Positions 31,417-36,123 of a DNA stretch of 64,000 bases are shown in pieces (position 1 is the first letter of the stretch; every line of letters starts with the position of its first letter). The stretch is from Rivularia sp. MS3 (GTDB lineage: Bacteria; Cyanobacteriota; Cyanobacteriia; Cyanobacteriales; Nostocaceae). The notes under the pieces are model-generated. The model saw nothing but the letters and a program-made list of their open reading frames with translations. It was not told where the DNA came from and searched no databases. A program made the position numbers and the translations under genes. The stretch spans positions 372,001 through 436,000 of the forward strand of contig JAHCMI010000001.1 of assembly GCA_019192545.1 (NCBI GenBank), given 5' to 3'.

Positions 31417-32205
31417 TCATGTGACCGTAGCTACTGCTTGTGGTTGTTGCATTAAACCCATTAAATCATCAATTCCTTTCTGCAAATACCGCGTTACTGT
31501 CATTGGGCTAGTGCCAATTTTTTTCGCTGCATCTTTGCGAGAAAATTCTTTCAAAAATACTAATTCAACAGCCATACGGGGCTTGTCTTCTAACATCCCC
31601 ATAGCTCCATGAAGTTGCTGACGCTCTTCTTCTAAATGCTGTTGAGCCGCAGTTTGGGGACAAGGTAATGCTTCACCTAATGTGATTTGACAATCAATGT
31701 AGTTAACTACTGTTGCATCTAGGCTTAAAGGCATTCTATTTTGAACGGCTAACTTGGTTTCTTGCCATTCTTGCACCGATACTTTCAACTCGCGGGCAAT
31801 TTCTAAATCTTTGGGTTGTCTTCCTAAGATATGCGCTAATTCTTTACGTATTTTCTGACCTTCGTTGTACAGTTCTTGCCAACGACGGGGTATTTTTAAT
31901 AAAGTACTACGGTCTCGTAAGAAGTGCAGCATTTCACCCCGAATATAAGGGACAGCAAAAGAACTAAATGCATATCCTTGAGTAGGATCGAAACGTTCAA
32001 TTGCTCTTATTAAACCGAAGTAACCAATTTGTTCTAAATCTTCATAAGGTTCGTTACATTGATGGCTAAATTTATGAGCCATTTTTCGTACTAAACCACT
32101 ATGCAATTTTACGAGTCTGTTACGAAGTTTAATCGAAGGATTCTGGTGATATAGACATAATAATTCCATACCATCAGACCGGATAGAGGACTGAATTACT
32201 GCCAT
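31417..32205 (-). CDS. sigF: Group 3 RNA polymerase sigma factor (SigF-like)
   Basis: The protein is 262 residues from the ATG at 32205, which has AAAGGAA seven bases upstream; an in-frame ATG 60 bp earlier would add an unrelated 20-residue tail. Region 2 is clear (EDLEQIGYFGLIRAIERFDP, SSFAVPYIRGEMLHFLRD), region 3 contains LGRQPKDLEIARELKVSVQE, and region 4 ends with FSRKDAAKKIGTSPMTVTRY. Region 1.1 is absent, as in sigma B/F/G types. In other cyanobacteria SigF controls pili, motility or envelope genes. No anti-sigma gene lies beside it. Confidence 0.9.
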   Translation of the reverse strand: MAVIQSSIRSDGMELLCLYHQNPSIKLRNRLVKLHSGLVRKMAHKFSHQCNEPYEDLEQIGYFGLIRAIERFDPTQGYAFSSFAVPYIRGEMLHFLRDRSTLLKIPRRWQELYNEGQKIRKELAHILGRQPKDLEIARELKVSVQEWQETKLAVQNRMPLSLDATVVNYIDCQITLGEALPCPQTAAQQHLEEERQQLHGAMGMLEDKPRMAVELVFLKEFSRKDAAKKIGTSPMTVTRYLQKGIDDLMGLMQQPQAVATVT

Positions 32206-32550
32206 ATAATTTCCTTTAGGGACTCTTTTTCCTGTAAAAAACCGAGCCGAGTAAAGTTTTATCAAAGCTGTAATTATTTTCTAAGGTAATCCTTTTTCAC
32301 ACCATTCGTTGTTCTACTGAATTTACAAGGTGCGAGACCCCTTTCATACGTATTTGTACGCATTTTATTAATGTTCATTAATTTGTTTGTATGTCAAGAT
32401 AAATAGCTATTATTGGCTTGGAACTTTGGCTGGACTAAGTTTTGGATTTATTAAATTGTTCTTAAAAGAACCATCTACTCGTCAGGATTTAAATAAATTG
32501 CGTAAAAATAGGAGAAAGAGCAATATCTCAATTAAGAACTTGTTGTAAAT
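32206..32550. other. Divergent promoter region of sigF and the Bax-inhibitor gene
   Basis: About 345 bp without a supported ORF; it must hold promoters for both flanking genes. The frame upstream of the sigF ATG remains open for 20 codons to 32265 but reads as non-homologous leader. No repeats or hairpins of note. Confidence 0.4.
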
Positions 32551-33285
32551 ATGAGTAATACGAGCAATTTCCGAAACGCTATTCGTGACGCAAAAAATCA
32601 AGCCCTTGTGGGACCTAATGTAATTGCTAATGCACTACCTTATGTAGGCGGCGGATTAGTACTTACTGCTTTGGGAACTTACGGTGGACTTGGAGTCATC
32701 CGCAATAATCCTCAAATATTCTTCCCTACTTTTATCGGTGCGGTAATCGTAGAACTAATTTTGTTTTTCGTCGCTCAAAATGTAGCTTCTAAAGGCAATA
32801 AGCAAGTTGCACTACCTTTACTAGCGGCTTACAGTCTATTATCTGGTTACACCCTTAGCGGCTTAGTATTTGTAGCCTTAAGCAGTCAAGGAGTAGGGAT
32901 TCAAGGTATTGGCATTGCTGCTCTCGGTTGTGGAGTCACCTTTATCGCAGCCCGTCAAATTGGTTCCAATCTTTCCGACTCTGACGGAATGGCTTTAACC
33001 AAAACCGTCCGTTTGGGTGTAATTGCTTTAATTGCAGTAATGATTCTGCAACTAGGACTTTCCTTGTTTGGCGTATATACCCCCGGTTGGTTGGAAATCG
33101 GTATCTCTGGCTTGGGTGTATGTTTATTCGCTGGTGCTGCGGTAGTTGACTTCTACGTATTACCCCGTACCTATCAAGATGACGAATATTTACCCGCAGC
33201 ATTATCGATGTACCTTACCTACATCAACTTATTCATCTTTATCTTGCGCCTATTAATTGCGATTAGTGGCGGCGGAAGAGATTAA
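32551..33285 (+). CDS. Bax inhibitor-1 / YccA-family membrane protein
   Basis: The 244-residue product has seven hydrophobic segments starting at about residue 28, with a hydrophilic Asn/Asp-rich N-terminus (MSNTSNFRNAIRDAKNQA). The pattern YVGGGLVLTALGTYGGLG ... YLTYINLFIFILRLLIAISG matches BI-1/YccA proteins, which in bacteria include a calcium-leak channel (BsYetJ) and an FtsH modulator (YccA). A terminator lies 110 bp downstream. The exact role in cyanobacteria is not known to me. Confidence 0.88.
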   Translation: MSNTSNFRNAIRDAKNQALVGPNVIANALPYVGGGLVLTALGTYGGLGVIRNNPQIFFPTFIGAVIVELILFFVAQNVASKGNKQVALPLLAAYSLLSGYTLSGLVFVALSSQGVGIQGIGIAALGCGVTFIAARQIGSNLSDSDGMALTKTVRLGVIALIAVMILQLGLSLFGVYTPGWLEIGISGLGVCLFAGAAVVDFYVLPRTYQDDEYLPAALSMYLTYINLFIFILRLLIAISGGGRD

Positions 33286-33422: not shown

Positions 33423-33435
33423 GCCGCAATTTATA

Positions 33436-33518
33436 TCGTAGGGTGCTGTGACGGCTCCGATAAATTTCCAAACATAACAAAATAATTTGATACTGCCGTC
33501 ACGCACCATCTTTTATTT
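33436..33518. repeat. 83-bp MITE-like repeat, left copy
   Basis: It begins TCGTAGGGTGCTGTGACGGC and ends GCCGTCACGCACCATC plus TTTTATT; the two ends are inverted repeats. It matches 34691-34772 with about three differences, in the same orientation. The two copies flank the RF2-like paralogue. A decayed third relative is suggested at 34809-34855 (TTGTCATCACGCAGCATC). Confidence 0.8.
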
Positions 33519-33609
33519 ATGACAATCAAAATACTTAACCTTTAACCTCTAACCTTTAAACTGTATTTGTACTACAATCCATATAACGTGTCTTAAAAAG
33601 AAGAACAAT

Positions 33610-34690
33610 ATGCTGGCACTTTCACTTGTAAAACGCGAAATCGAAACCTTGTCTAAGTTCCTTAGCCAACCCCAACACTGTCTTTGACATCCGTAAAATC
33701 AGTTCAAGAGTTCGGGATTTTGAAAAGCAACTCATCAAACCTGAATTCTGGCAAGACACTGTAATTGCTCGACACTCTCTTCAAGAATTATCTTATTTAA
33801 TATTCTGCGAGCAAGAACAATATCGAGAATTGAAAACCCGCTTATGTGATATCCAAGCAGCTTTACAGCTTCTGGAATCGGAATCTGACGAACAGTTAGA
33901 GCAAGAATTGCAAACTAATTATGAATTCTTAAGCAGCAAACTCAAACATGTTGAAATCATAAGCCTTTTTGATCGAGCTTATGACGACAAAGGAGCATTT
34001 GTGACTATTAAAGCTTGCGATCGCAACATAGATTGCCAAGATTGGGTAGAAATGATCCAAAGAATGTACGCCAACTGGTGCGAGAATCACGATTGCAAGC
34101 TTTGGTTTTTGGATGAATCCATAGGAGAATTTTGCGGATTTAACTATGTGACTTTAGAGATTTCCGCTAATTATGTTTACGGTTATCTCAAATCCGAGCA
34201 AGGAATTCATCAACTAAAGCGAATTTCGCCTTTTCGCAAAAAGCCTGCAATCAAAATTAGTTTTGCAAAGTTAGAAGTTACGCCGATTCTGGATGAGTCG
34301 GTAGATTTTGAGATTCCTATAGAAGATTTGGAAATCACTGGTAAACATTCCCTAAATGGGCGAAGCCTTTGGGTAAGAATCTTACATATTCCTACAGGCA
34401 TTTCCTTTACTGCTAGGAATCAACGTTCCCAATTACAAAATAAGGAAACAGCTTTGGCTGTTGTCAAAAGCAAACTATTCGCACTAATGCAATCTCAAGG
34501 TGTTGTACTTTCGGATGTAAAAAAACCATCTTCTAAAGATGTCGTTAACAACCCAATCCGCGAATACATCTTTCATCCTTACCAAAAAGTCAAAGACTTA
34601 CGTACCAACGTAGAAACAACTGACATTGAAGAAGTAATGAAAGGAAATCTAGATTTGTTTACCAAAGCCTATCTCAAGCAAATGCATTAA
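33610..34690 (+). CDS. RF2 (PrfB) paralogue without GGQ, with its own +1 frameshift site
   Basis: An ATG at 33610 starts 25 codons ending CTT, then TGA at 33685. A +1 shift on CTT-TGA-C restores a frame open to 34690, giving 359 residues when joined (33610-33684 + 33686-34690). The two frames together align end to end with the RF2 gene 320 bp downstream (KREIETLS near the start; FHPYQKVKDLRTNVETTDIE near the end). The stop-codon-recognition tripeptide SPF is kept (206-208). The whole GGQ loop is gone: after DLEIT (239-243) comes GKHSLNGRSLWVRI, about seven residues shorter than RF2 and without any GGQ. The domain-2 motif [10 protein letters not shown] is also changed to CDRNIDCQDW. It could bind the ribosome but should not hydrolyse peptidyl-tRNA. 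Not recognised as any named family. Confidence 0.82.
33673..33688 (+). promoter_or_regulatory. Candidate programmed +1 frameshift site of the RF2 paralogue
   Basis: The sequence CAACACTGTCTTTGAC ends with CTT TGA C, the same slippery codon and stop context as in prfB. Unlike prfB there is no purine-rich, Shine-Dalgarno-like stretch just before CTT, so efficiency may be low. Confidence 0.6.
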
Positions 34691-34772
34691 TCGTAGGGTG
34701 CACTGACGGCTCCGATGAATTTCCAAACATAACAAAATAATTTGATACTGCCGTCACGCACCATCTTTTATT
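34691..34772. repeat. 83-bp MITE-like repeat, right copy
   Basis: TCGTAGGGTGCACTGACGGC ... GCCGTCACGCACCATC, directly abutting the stop codon of the RF2 paralogue (TAA at 34688-34690). It is in the same orientation as the left copy. Confidence 0.8.
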
Positions 34773-34860
34773 AATGCTCCATTCTCAATTCCTAATTTCC
34801 TACAACTCCCAAACACAACGGAATAAATTTAAATTGTCATCACGCAGCATCTTTAATTAA

Positions 34861-35012: not shown

Positions 35013-36123
35013 ATGGAAGTTCTAGAAATCAAACGCGAAATCGAAACGCTATCTAATCGCCTGGGTAAAACTCAGGACTATCTTTGACTTACCCGCACTC
35101 AAAGCTAAAATTCAAGATTTAGAACAAATCGCAGCGCAGCCGGAGTTTTGGGAAGATCAAAATAAGGCTCAAGATACTTTGCAGGAGCTTAACGAACTCA
35201 AAGAACATTTGCAACGGTATCATGACTGGCATTCTAGTTTAGAGGATACCAAAGCAGTTGTCGAACTGTTGGAATCCGAAACTGACGAGTCACTACTGAA
35301 CGAAGCTGTATCTAACGTTACAATTCTTGCCCGCGAACTTGACCAGTGGGAGTTACAGCAGTTACTTTCTGGTCCCTACGATAGTAAAGGCGCTTTATTA
35401 ACGATTACAGCCGGTGCTGGCGGTACTGATGCTCAAGACTGGGCGGAAATGATGCTGCGAATGTATACCCGCTGGGGAGAAAGTCACGGTTATAAAGTTA
35501 AAATTACCGATGAATCTGCTGGAGATGAAGCTGGTATAAAGTCGGTAACGTTAGAAATTACTGGACGCTATGCTTACGGCTATTTACGTTCGGAAATGGG
35601 CACCCATCGCTTAGTTAGGATTTCTCCTTTCAATGCTAACGGTAAGCGACAAACCAGTTTTGCTGGAGTAGAAGTTATGCCGCAGATAGATGACAATGTA
35701 GAGTTAGATATCCCCGACAAGGATTTAGAAATTACTACATCTAGGGCAGGCGGTAAAGGCGGACAAAACGTCAACAAAGTGGAAACAGCAGTGCGAATTG
35801 TGCATATTCCGACAAATATAGCGGTGCGATGTACTGAAGAGCGATCGCAATTACAAAACAAAGAAAAAGCCCTTGCCCGTCTTAAAGCAAAGTTATTAGT
35901 TGTAGCTCAAGAACAGCACGCCAAAGAAATCGCCGAAATTCGCGGTGATATGGTAGAAGCGAGTTGGGGGAACCAAATACGCAACTACGTATTTCATCCT
36001 TACCAGATGGTAAAAGACTTGCGTACCAACATCGAAACAACAGCTATAACTGACGTAATGAATGGAGAATTAGATTCTTTTATTCAAGCTTATCTGCGGC
36101 AGGAAAACCAAGTAACCAGTTAA
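35013..36123 (+). CDS. prfB: Peptide chain release factor 2, expressed by +1 frameshift
   Basis: The ATG at 35013 opens a 24-codon leader frame ending CTT (35082-35084) before TGA (35085-35087). Shifting +1 gives 35086-36123, and the joined product is 369 residues. The protein has the RF2 anticodon tripeptide SPF (204-206) and the catalytic loop [17 protein letters not shown] with GGQ at 249-251, plus the ribosome-docking [16 protein letters not shown]. It releases peptides at UGA and UAA. The frameshift lets RF2 control its own amount, as in most bacteria. A conceptual start inside the second frame would wrongly lose about 55 N-terminal residues. Confidence 0.95.
35072..35088 (+). promoter_or_regulatory. 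prfB: Programmed +1 frameshift site of prfB
   Basis: TCAGGACTATCTTTGAC contains the slippery CTT codon followed by TGA C, with AGGA a few bases upstream as a weak Shine-Dalgarno-like stimulator. The arrangement matches the classical RF2 recoding element. Confidence 0.9.

Follow-up and report, generated by a model that had tools for sequence, protein, structure and literature searches.

The window analyzed here is a 64,000-nucleotide stretch of the Rivularia sp. MS3 genome (contig JAHCMI010000001.1, positions 372,001 to 436,000 of the forward strand). At positions 33610-34690 on the plus strand it carries a gene for an RF2-like paralogue that lacks the GGQ motif and lies upstream of prfB, the gene for genuine RF2. 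The paralogue is a two-piece gene with the layout of prfB, in which a short zero-frame leader is followed by a body in the +1 frame (25 + 334 = 359 amino acids), and its end is separated from the start of prfB (35013) by a gap of 322 bp (Table 1). The original prediction, made from the sequence alone, of a full-length RF2-like protein near prfB was correct in its coordinates, and the predicted open +1 frame of 334 codons was confirmed at 33686-34690. The +1-frame proteins of the window paralogue and the window prfB are 45% identical. The SPF tripeptide is retained, and the GGQ loop of prfB is replaced by GKHSLNGRS with a shortening of about seven residues, both as had been proposed. No AGG-type stimulator was present in the 15 nt that precede the slip site of the window gene.

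The predicted product of the paralogue has recognizable release factor domains, as the Pfam matches to PCRF (111.8 bits) and RF-1 (50 bits) were both above the cut-off. The NCBIfam prfB model TIGR00020 scored the window paralogue at 278.4 against a cut-off of 370, and thus the curated RF2 model rejects it, whereas the window prfB passed with a score of 485. The score with the PrfH model TIGR03072 (42.5) also fell below the cut-off of 166.65. An AF2 model of the paralogue derived from 45 sequences had a pLDDT of 88 and a pTM of 0.80, with values of ~66 in the loop block, and aligned with E. coli RF2 (1gqe) over 322 residues with a Z score of 31.8 and a root mean square deviation of 3.2. An earlier AF2 model from 17 sequences was poor (pLDDT 65) and was superseded. 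The modelled structure indicates that the RF2 fold is kept by the window paralogue; a common fold is no proof of function. The paralogue is without the Gly pair found in the decoding domain of prfB and reads CDRNIDCQDW in place of the corresponding ten residues. This pair lies at the helix alpha 5 tip and is described as a probable contact of the first stop codon base (PMC1586002).

Table 1. Positions in the window of the RF2-like paralogue, its landmarks and neighboring genes
Feature	Position	Strand	Details
Zero-frame leader open reading frame	33610..33687	+	25 codons, ATG 33610 to CTT 33682-33684, then in-frame UGA
+1 frameshift site CTT TGA C	33682..33688	+	identical to the site in prfB
+1-frame body of the RF2-like paralogue	33686..34690	+	334 codons and stop at 34688-34690
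Arg-Asn codons at the prfB Gly-Gly position (probable contact of the first stop codon base)	34022..34027	+	alignment; role of the pair from PMC1586002
Tyr codon; in-frame UGA at this position in 14 relatives, Trp in one	34184..34186	+	alignment
SPF tripeptide, kept	34226..34234	+	sequence, alignment
GKHSLNGRS replacing the GGQ loop, seven residues shorter than in prfB	34340..34366	+	sequence, alignment
Genuine prfB (RF2)	35013..36123	+	leader, CTTTGAC at 35082, SPF, GGQ
Sigma factor gene	31420-32265	-	Pfam
Bax1-I protein gene	32551-33282		Pfam

The window paralogue is one of 58 near-full-length copies, all from within one cyanobacterial order and nearly all beside prfB. Copies were accepted as full-length when they extended from the first 10 residues through query residue 310 or further; 57 copies formed the main alignment set and that of genome G386 was examined later. 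A search of 41 near genomes with the window protein as query gave a match at E <= 1e-60 in 40, mostly prfB, and more than one match in six. At the level of the taxonomic family, 215 of 217 genomes matched at E <= 1e-50 and 55 produced a second match or more. A full-length copy was present in 52 of these 55 genomes (53 copies, with two in G005) and shorter or broken copies in the other three (G134, G168, and G176). Five further copies were found outside that taxonomic family, in G373 and G248 (both of family f33), in G316 (f21), and in G479 and G386 (both f2). When 386 genomes of the phylum were searched, members of the order included, second matches at 1e-60 were obtained for G000, G013, G154, G185, G222, and G386, all of which belong to the order. 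The searches beyond the taxonomic family scored no more than five candidates per genome and are lower bounds; two matches at 1e-50 there may denote prfB with either RF1 or a copy of the paralogue, the latter in G386. Within the genus of the window, four of eight genomes possess the paralogue.

In 52 of 57 loci the first frameshift-type gene to follow in the same orientation was a prfB gene with GGQ, and in G386 prfB also comes next. The first copy in G005 is followed instead by the second copy, and four loci were without a downstream frameshift-type gene in the stretch examined at each: G172, in which the locus ends, G010, G053, and G316 (prfB on another contig). In G010 (L037) and G053 the paralogue is ~4.3 kb from prfB and not adjacent. 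The motif CTRTCTTTGAC occurs 134-673 nt past the stop codon of the paralogue in 49 of 57 copies, with the motif of the second copy being that detected for the first copy in G005. The latter genome matches Calothrix parasitica NIES-267 (order Nostocales in NCBI) by coordinates and contains two tandem GGQ-less copies ahead of prfB (L035, 2162-5805) that have UAG and UGA as slip stops. A contig scan produced one clear family member among the matches listed (L136), which corresponds to Calothrix parasitica NIES-267 and coincides with G005 in its coordinates; a further 79 loci, 34-39% identical, are probably ordinary prfB genes. In G184 (L123, minus strand) prfB is broken by a frame change after QNKEK that is either an assembly error or real. 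In a FastTree phylogeny with SH-like supports, several nodes of which were weak, the paralogues were monophyletic against 10 prfB sequences with a support of 0.993. Overall, the comparisons indicate that the paralogues are an old family of prfB tandem duplicates of one cyanobacterial order that is common to many filamentous cyanobacteria.

All 58 copies possess a leader that ends in CTT-stop-C and a body in the +1 frame. The leader spans 24-25 codons from ATG in the 57 copies of the main set, and 24 codons from GTG in G386, as in the prfB gene of the same genome. The slip stop is UGA in 52 copies, UAA in three (G053, G248, and G316), and UAG in three (G175, the first copy in G005, and G479); the G386 site is CTTTGAC. 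In the prfB comparison set CTTTGAC was present in 106 of 107 genes and no site was found in one. An AGG triplet within 15 nt upstream of the site was detected in 41 of 57 family copies compared to 100 of 106 prfB genes. UAG is a codon of RF1. Published survey data on 8,164 genomes with a motif-bearing prfB gave TGA as the stop in 98.6%, TAA in 1.4%, and TAG in none (PMC12421855). Thirty-two variants of the CUU shift site have been assayed with UAG as the next codon and thus a CUU-UAG site is at least usable experimentally (PMC5009743). The UAG slip stops, and the missing AGG in the window's genus, argue against strict control of the shift by RF2. Retention of the stop codon while its identity drifts suggests that stopping and shifting are themselves selected, and persistence of a stop whose need for a shift would be ended by a single deletion counts in favor of a retained switch. 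Because no examined copy has lost its recoding site, the case for a connection with recoding is stronger than originally proposed. Both this retention of a prfB-type shift site and the loss of the Gly pair go beyond the original prediction.

The GGQ motif is absent in 57 of the 58 copies and, judged from the alignment columns, present in all of 105 prfB sequences. The sole holder is the copy in G171; four of the GGQ-less copies keep the Gln after a single Gly (NGQ, HGQ, HGQ, and DGQ). The SPF tripeptide is present in 28 of 57 copies, including 27 of the 34 with a fully open +1 frame, and is replaced elsewhere by SPV, LPF, SHL, SPQ, YPQ, and others. The Gly pair is intact in all 105 prfB sequences, in 15 of 57 family copies, and in seven of the 34 open copies, being lost in the other 27. 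Only four of 57 copies combine SPF with the Gly pair. Thus, the proposal that the paralogue keeps stop codon recognition held for SPF, both in the window copy and in most of the open copies, but failed for the Gly pair, which is missing from the window copy and from most open copies. Mean column entropy, given for prfB and then for the family, was 0.02 versus 1.56 bits for the SPF stretch, 0.12 versus 1.47 bits for the GGQ loop, and 0.14 versus 1.48 bits for the Gly-pair stretch, compared to 0.61 versus 1.30 bits for domain 1 and 0.37 versus 0.88 bits for the C-terminus. These differences point to a scaffold that is held and to working tips that are free, which makes it doubtful that the paralogue reads stop codons in the manner of RF2.

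The exceptional copy in G171 (L076:1501-2550, minus strand) has an unusual middle segment. The proportion of synonymous differences (pS) to a close relative is 0.40-0.60 over codons ~140-240, and 0.08-0.20 elsewhere. The same segment is 0.69-0.72 identical to prfB and at best 0.78-0.84 identical to family members, whereas the flanks are 0.90-0.99 identical to the family. Given the segment identities and the rise in pS, the idea that G171 acquired its GGQ motif from prfB by gene conversion was rejected. Instead, the segment appears to be an imported cassette that carries both loops, that for decoding and that for release; the donor was not found. The copy in G178 (L051) is also a mosaic, with a similar rise in pS over codons ~60-220 and a divergent cassette over the decoding loop.

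The ratio of nonsynonymous to synonymous divergence (dN/dS, omega) was estimated by the NG86 method. Values of 0.254 were obtained for the window's genus (six pairs, dS 0.68), 0.332 for the window copy with that of G006, and 0.338 for 12 Nostoc-like copies. Across the tested sets of paralogues the ratio was 0.24-0.38, and that of prfB was 0.036-0.043. The paralogue frame is therefore constrained by purifying selection, albeit loosely. The orthologue search and dN/dS estimates, which had been named as the means of refuting the original prediction, yielded orthologues and ratios well below unity, and the view that the window gene represents a conserved and selected GGQ-less RF2 paralogue was upheld.

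In 14 of 57 copies codon 166, counted in the +1 frame, is a UGA. Twelve are otherwise open and two have further stops. The context is UGAC in 13, and the single copy with UGAA has another stop. The position is occupied by Trp (UGG) in G175 and by Leu in G171. The copies with UGA-166 form two groups in the tree, one consisting of G143-G180 and the other a larger Nostoc-like clade that includes G175 and G171, with some weak nodes. Omega calculated from five disjoint pairs of copies with UGA-166 was 0.441 upstream and 0.272 downstream of the codon (95% interval for the latter 0.21-0.36, with none of 2000 bootstraps reaching 1). Values in seven control pairs that lack UGA-166 were 0.280 upstream and 0.297 downstream. 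The 39 codons immediately 3' of UGA-166 displayed 22 synonymous and 17 nonsynonymous differences in six disjoint pairs, one of which involved the disrupted G181 copy, with a ratio of nonsynonymous to synonymous proportions (pN/pS) of 0.25. Constraint that continues past UGA-166 favors readthrough, which we regard as somewhat probable from these patterns, and the amino acid inserted is perhaps Trp. A nonsense mutation common to copies in decay, which is possible although not the explanation that we would choose, would instead account for the further stops in two of 14 copies and for the presence at codon 166 in nine other members of Cys codons (TGC or TGT) that are one step from TGA. Moreover, pS is low around UGA-166 (0.08-0.12 versus 0.13-0.36 elsewhere), a hint of recombination by which the UGA could have spread, so that it may postdate some of the divergence downstream; the 21 codons immediately 5' gave a pN/pS of 0.97, a value based on small numbers. 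A nonsense mutation is less readily reconciled with the open frames of 12 of 14 copies, the persistent downstream constraint, the near-uniform UGAC context, Trp at the same codon in G175, and the two separate tree groups.

Several potential mechanisms of readthrough were assessed. Selenocysteine insertion was rejected, as tRNA-Sec exceeded the cut-off in none of 15 genomes; sub-threshold matches occurred in all 15. Seven tRNA-array stretches from six genomes with UGA-166, to which the search for suppressor tRNAs was confined, contained no UCA anticodon, with one anticodon unresolved. A stimulatory RNA fold 3' of UGA-166 also was rejected, as z values in five copies were inconsistent (-2.7 to 0, mononucleotide shuffle). 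The arrays of G158 (L218) and G143 (L220) include, at L218:6209-6280 and L220:4797-4868, a tRNA with anticodon CTA, annotated as 'Pyl' by ARAGORN, at a position that is held by tRNA-Lys CTT in the sister arrays L216, L217, and L219. This tRNA is possibly amber-reading. Arrays L218 and L220 each comprise 28 tRNA genes, and L218 also has one tmRNA-like call.

Pfam matches assigned the genes after prfB in the window to DUF3285, YbeY, and diacylglycerol kinase. Two copies (~95% alike) of a dispersed repeat of ~85 bp bracket the paralogue at 33435-33525 and 34690-34776. Its ends are partly palindromic when judged by eye, and at least 57 matches were present genome-wide, with 40 of 237 candidates scored.

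At the level of sequence, the family is characterized by the absence of GGQ, a leader with a CTT-stop +1 site, purifying selection, and a place upstream of prfB. The best supported reading is a tandem duplicate of RF2 that lost the chemistry of peptide release but preserved its fold and a translational switch of the RF2 type. As with prfB, synthesis of the long protein would be restricted to conditions of slow termination at the stop codon of the leader. With less assurance, the product may be a non-releasing factor with a shape suited to the A site that acts on ribosomes, or on their mRNA, during termination stress and is not a reader of stop codons. In Nostoc-like copies the second in-frame UGAC is probably read through, in which case UGA termination would gate its synthesis at two points. 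We tentatively favor a non-releasing, termination-gated RF2-like protein that acts on ribosomes under termination stress, a proposal that we hold with slightly less than even confidence. A more specific version, in which the protein is a termination sensor-effector that appears only when termination fails, through the +1 shift and in Nostoc-like copies the second UGA, and then acts on those same ribosomes, is somewhat unlikely.

A number of observations weigh against this proposal. The slip sites of the window copy and of its genus are without the AGG stimulator, the G171 copy retains GGQ, and some of the strongest relaxation in the alignment is at the decoding and GGQ loops, which speaks against a precise role in the A site. 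No second copy at E <= 1e-50 was detected in 162 of 217 genomes of the taxonomic family, and omega for the paralogue is ~7-9 times that of prfB. Other stops disrupt 11 of 57 copies, in G119 and G120 only at the extreme C-terminus. At least 13 genomes have only fragments or truncated copies (G009, G134, G142, G147, G148, G157, G164, G168, G169, G170, G176, G182, and G190). The gene is therefore dispensable in some lineages and undergoes repeated loss, with retention in others. In neutral simulations the chance of acquiring no new stop was 35%, 14.5%, and 5% at 5%, 10%, and 15% divergence, respectively, and thus the openness of single copies is weak evidence.

The alternative explanations overlap both with a non-releasing factor and with each other. 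That the RF2 fold has been reused for binding a particular RNA away from the ribosome, as a regulator like PrfB3 of land plants, would fit the relaxed decoding and release tips on a better conserved scaffold and has the plant precedent (PMC5897788). Nonetheless, SPF persists in 27 of 34 open copies, and the stop-gated frameshift site in all 58 copies ties production to termination; we judge this role unlikely. Competition with RF2, as originally proposed, in which UGA or UAA A sites are occupied without release so that RF2 activity is lowered and prfB frameshifting raised, would be in keeping with the modelled fold, the retained SPF, the adjacency to prfB, and the common frameshift site. It is quite improbable in view of the loss of the Gly pair from the window copy and most open copies, the scarcity of copies with both SPF and the pair, and the replacement of SPF by SPV, SHL, YPQ, and other tripeptides in many copies. 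A low probability of the same order is given to a relict under weak selection, that is, a sub-functional duplicate in the process of loss, the frameshift site and open frame of which are leftovers. The fragments and stop-bearing copies in a number of genomes, the high omega relative to prfB, and the patchy presence are as expected of a relict, but omega was well below 1 in every tested set, no bootstrap of the pooled disjoint pairs reached 1 in 2000 replicates, the family is monophyletic, and the slip stop persists in 58 of 58 copies even after a change of stop codon. Simple decay of a recent duplicate was rejected as a full account by the monophyly, the slip-site retention, and the dN/dS values, and is retained here as a rival in view of the broken copies in a number of genomes.

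Comparison with known systems places the family closest to RF2 in its modelled fold, PCRF and RF-1 domains, the SPF of the window copy, and the leader with a CTTTGAC +1 site. It differs from RF2 in the missing GGQ, the loop that is shorter by seven residues, the lost Gly pair, a TIGR00020 score below cut-off, and an omega that is several-fold higher. PrfB3 from the plastids of land plants also is a GGQ-less RF2 paralogue in a photosynthetic lineage, and it protects the 3' end of petB mRNA (PMC5897788). In contrast to the window copy, PrfB3 has lost SPF as well as GGQ and it acts in plastids; SPF is absent from 29 of 57 family copies. The present family was found only in one cyanobacterial order, beside prfB and gated by a frameshift. 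RFH/PrfH similarly is an additional bacterial class-I release factor with an altered decoding region (PMC1586002), but keeps GGQ, is without domain 1, and is coupled to RtcB (PMC1586002; PMC6514570). Dom34/Pelota and inactive baeRF-1 are release factor relatives that lack the catalytic Gln and for which action in the A site is proposed, but their catalytic domain has an unrelated fold of the aeRF-1 type (PMC6514570). No description of a bacterial class-I release factor family without GGQ was found in searches and passages of an open-access library, in agreement with the original statement that no named bacterial family shows this combination, to which the PrfB3 precedent in land plants is to be added (PMC5897788).

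GGQ has been described as the single motif that is universal to class-I release factors (PMC1586002). The family reported here would be a selected bacterial family that dropped GGQ yet kept the fold of RF2 together with its recoding switch. The UAG slip sites provide a natural test of whether this switch responds specifically to RF2 or to any slowing of termination and, if the second UGA is read through, the genes that bear it would be doubly recoded.
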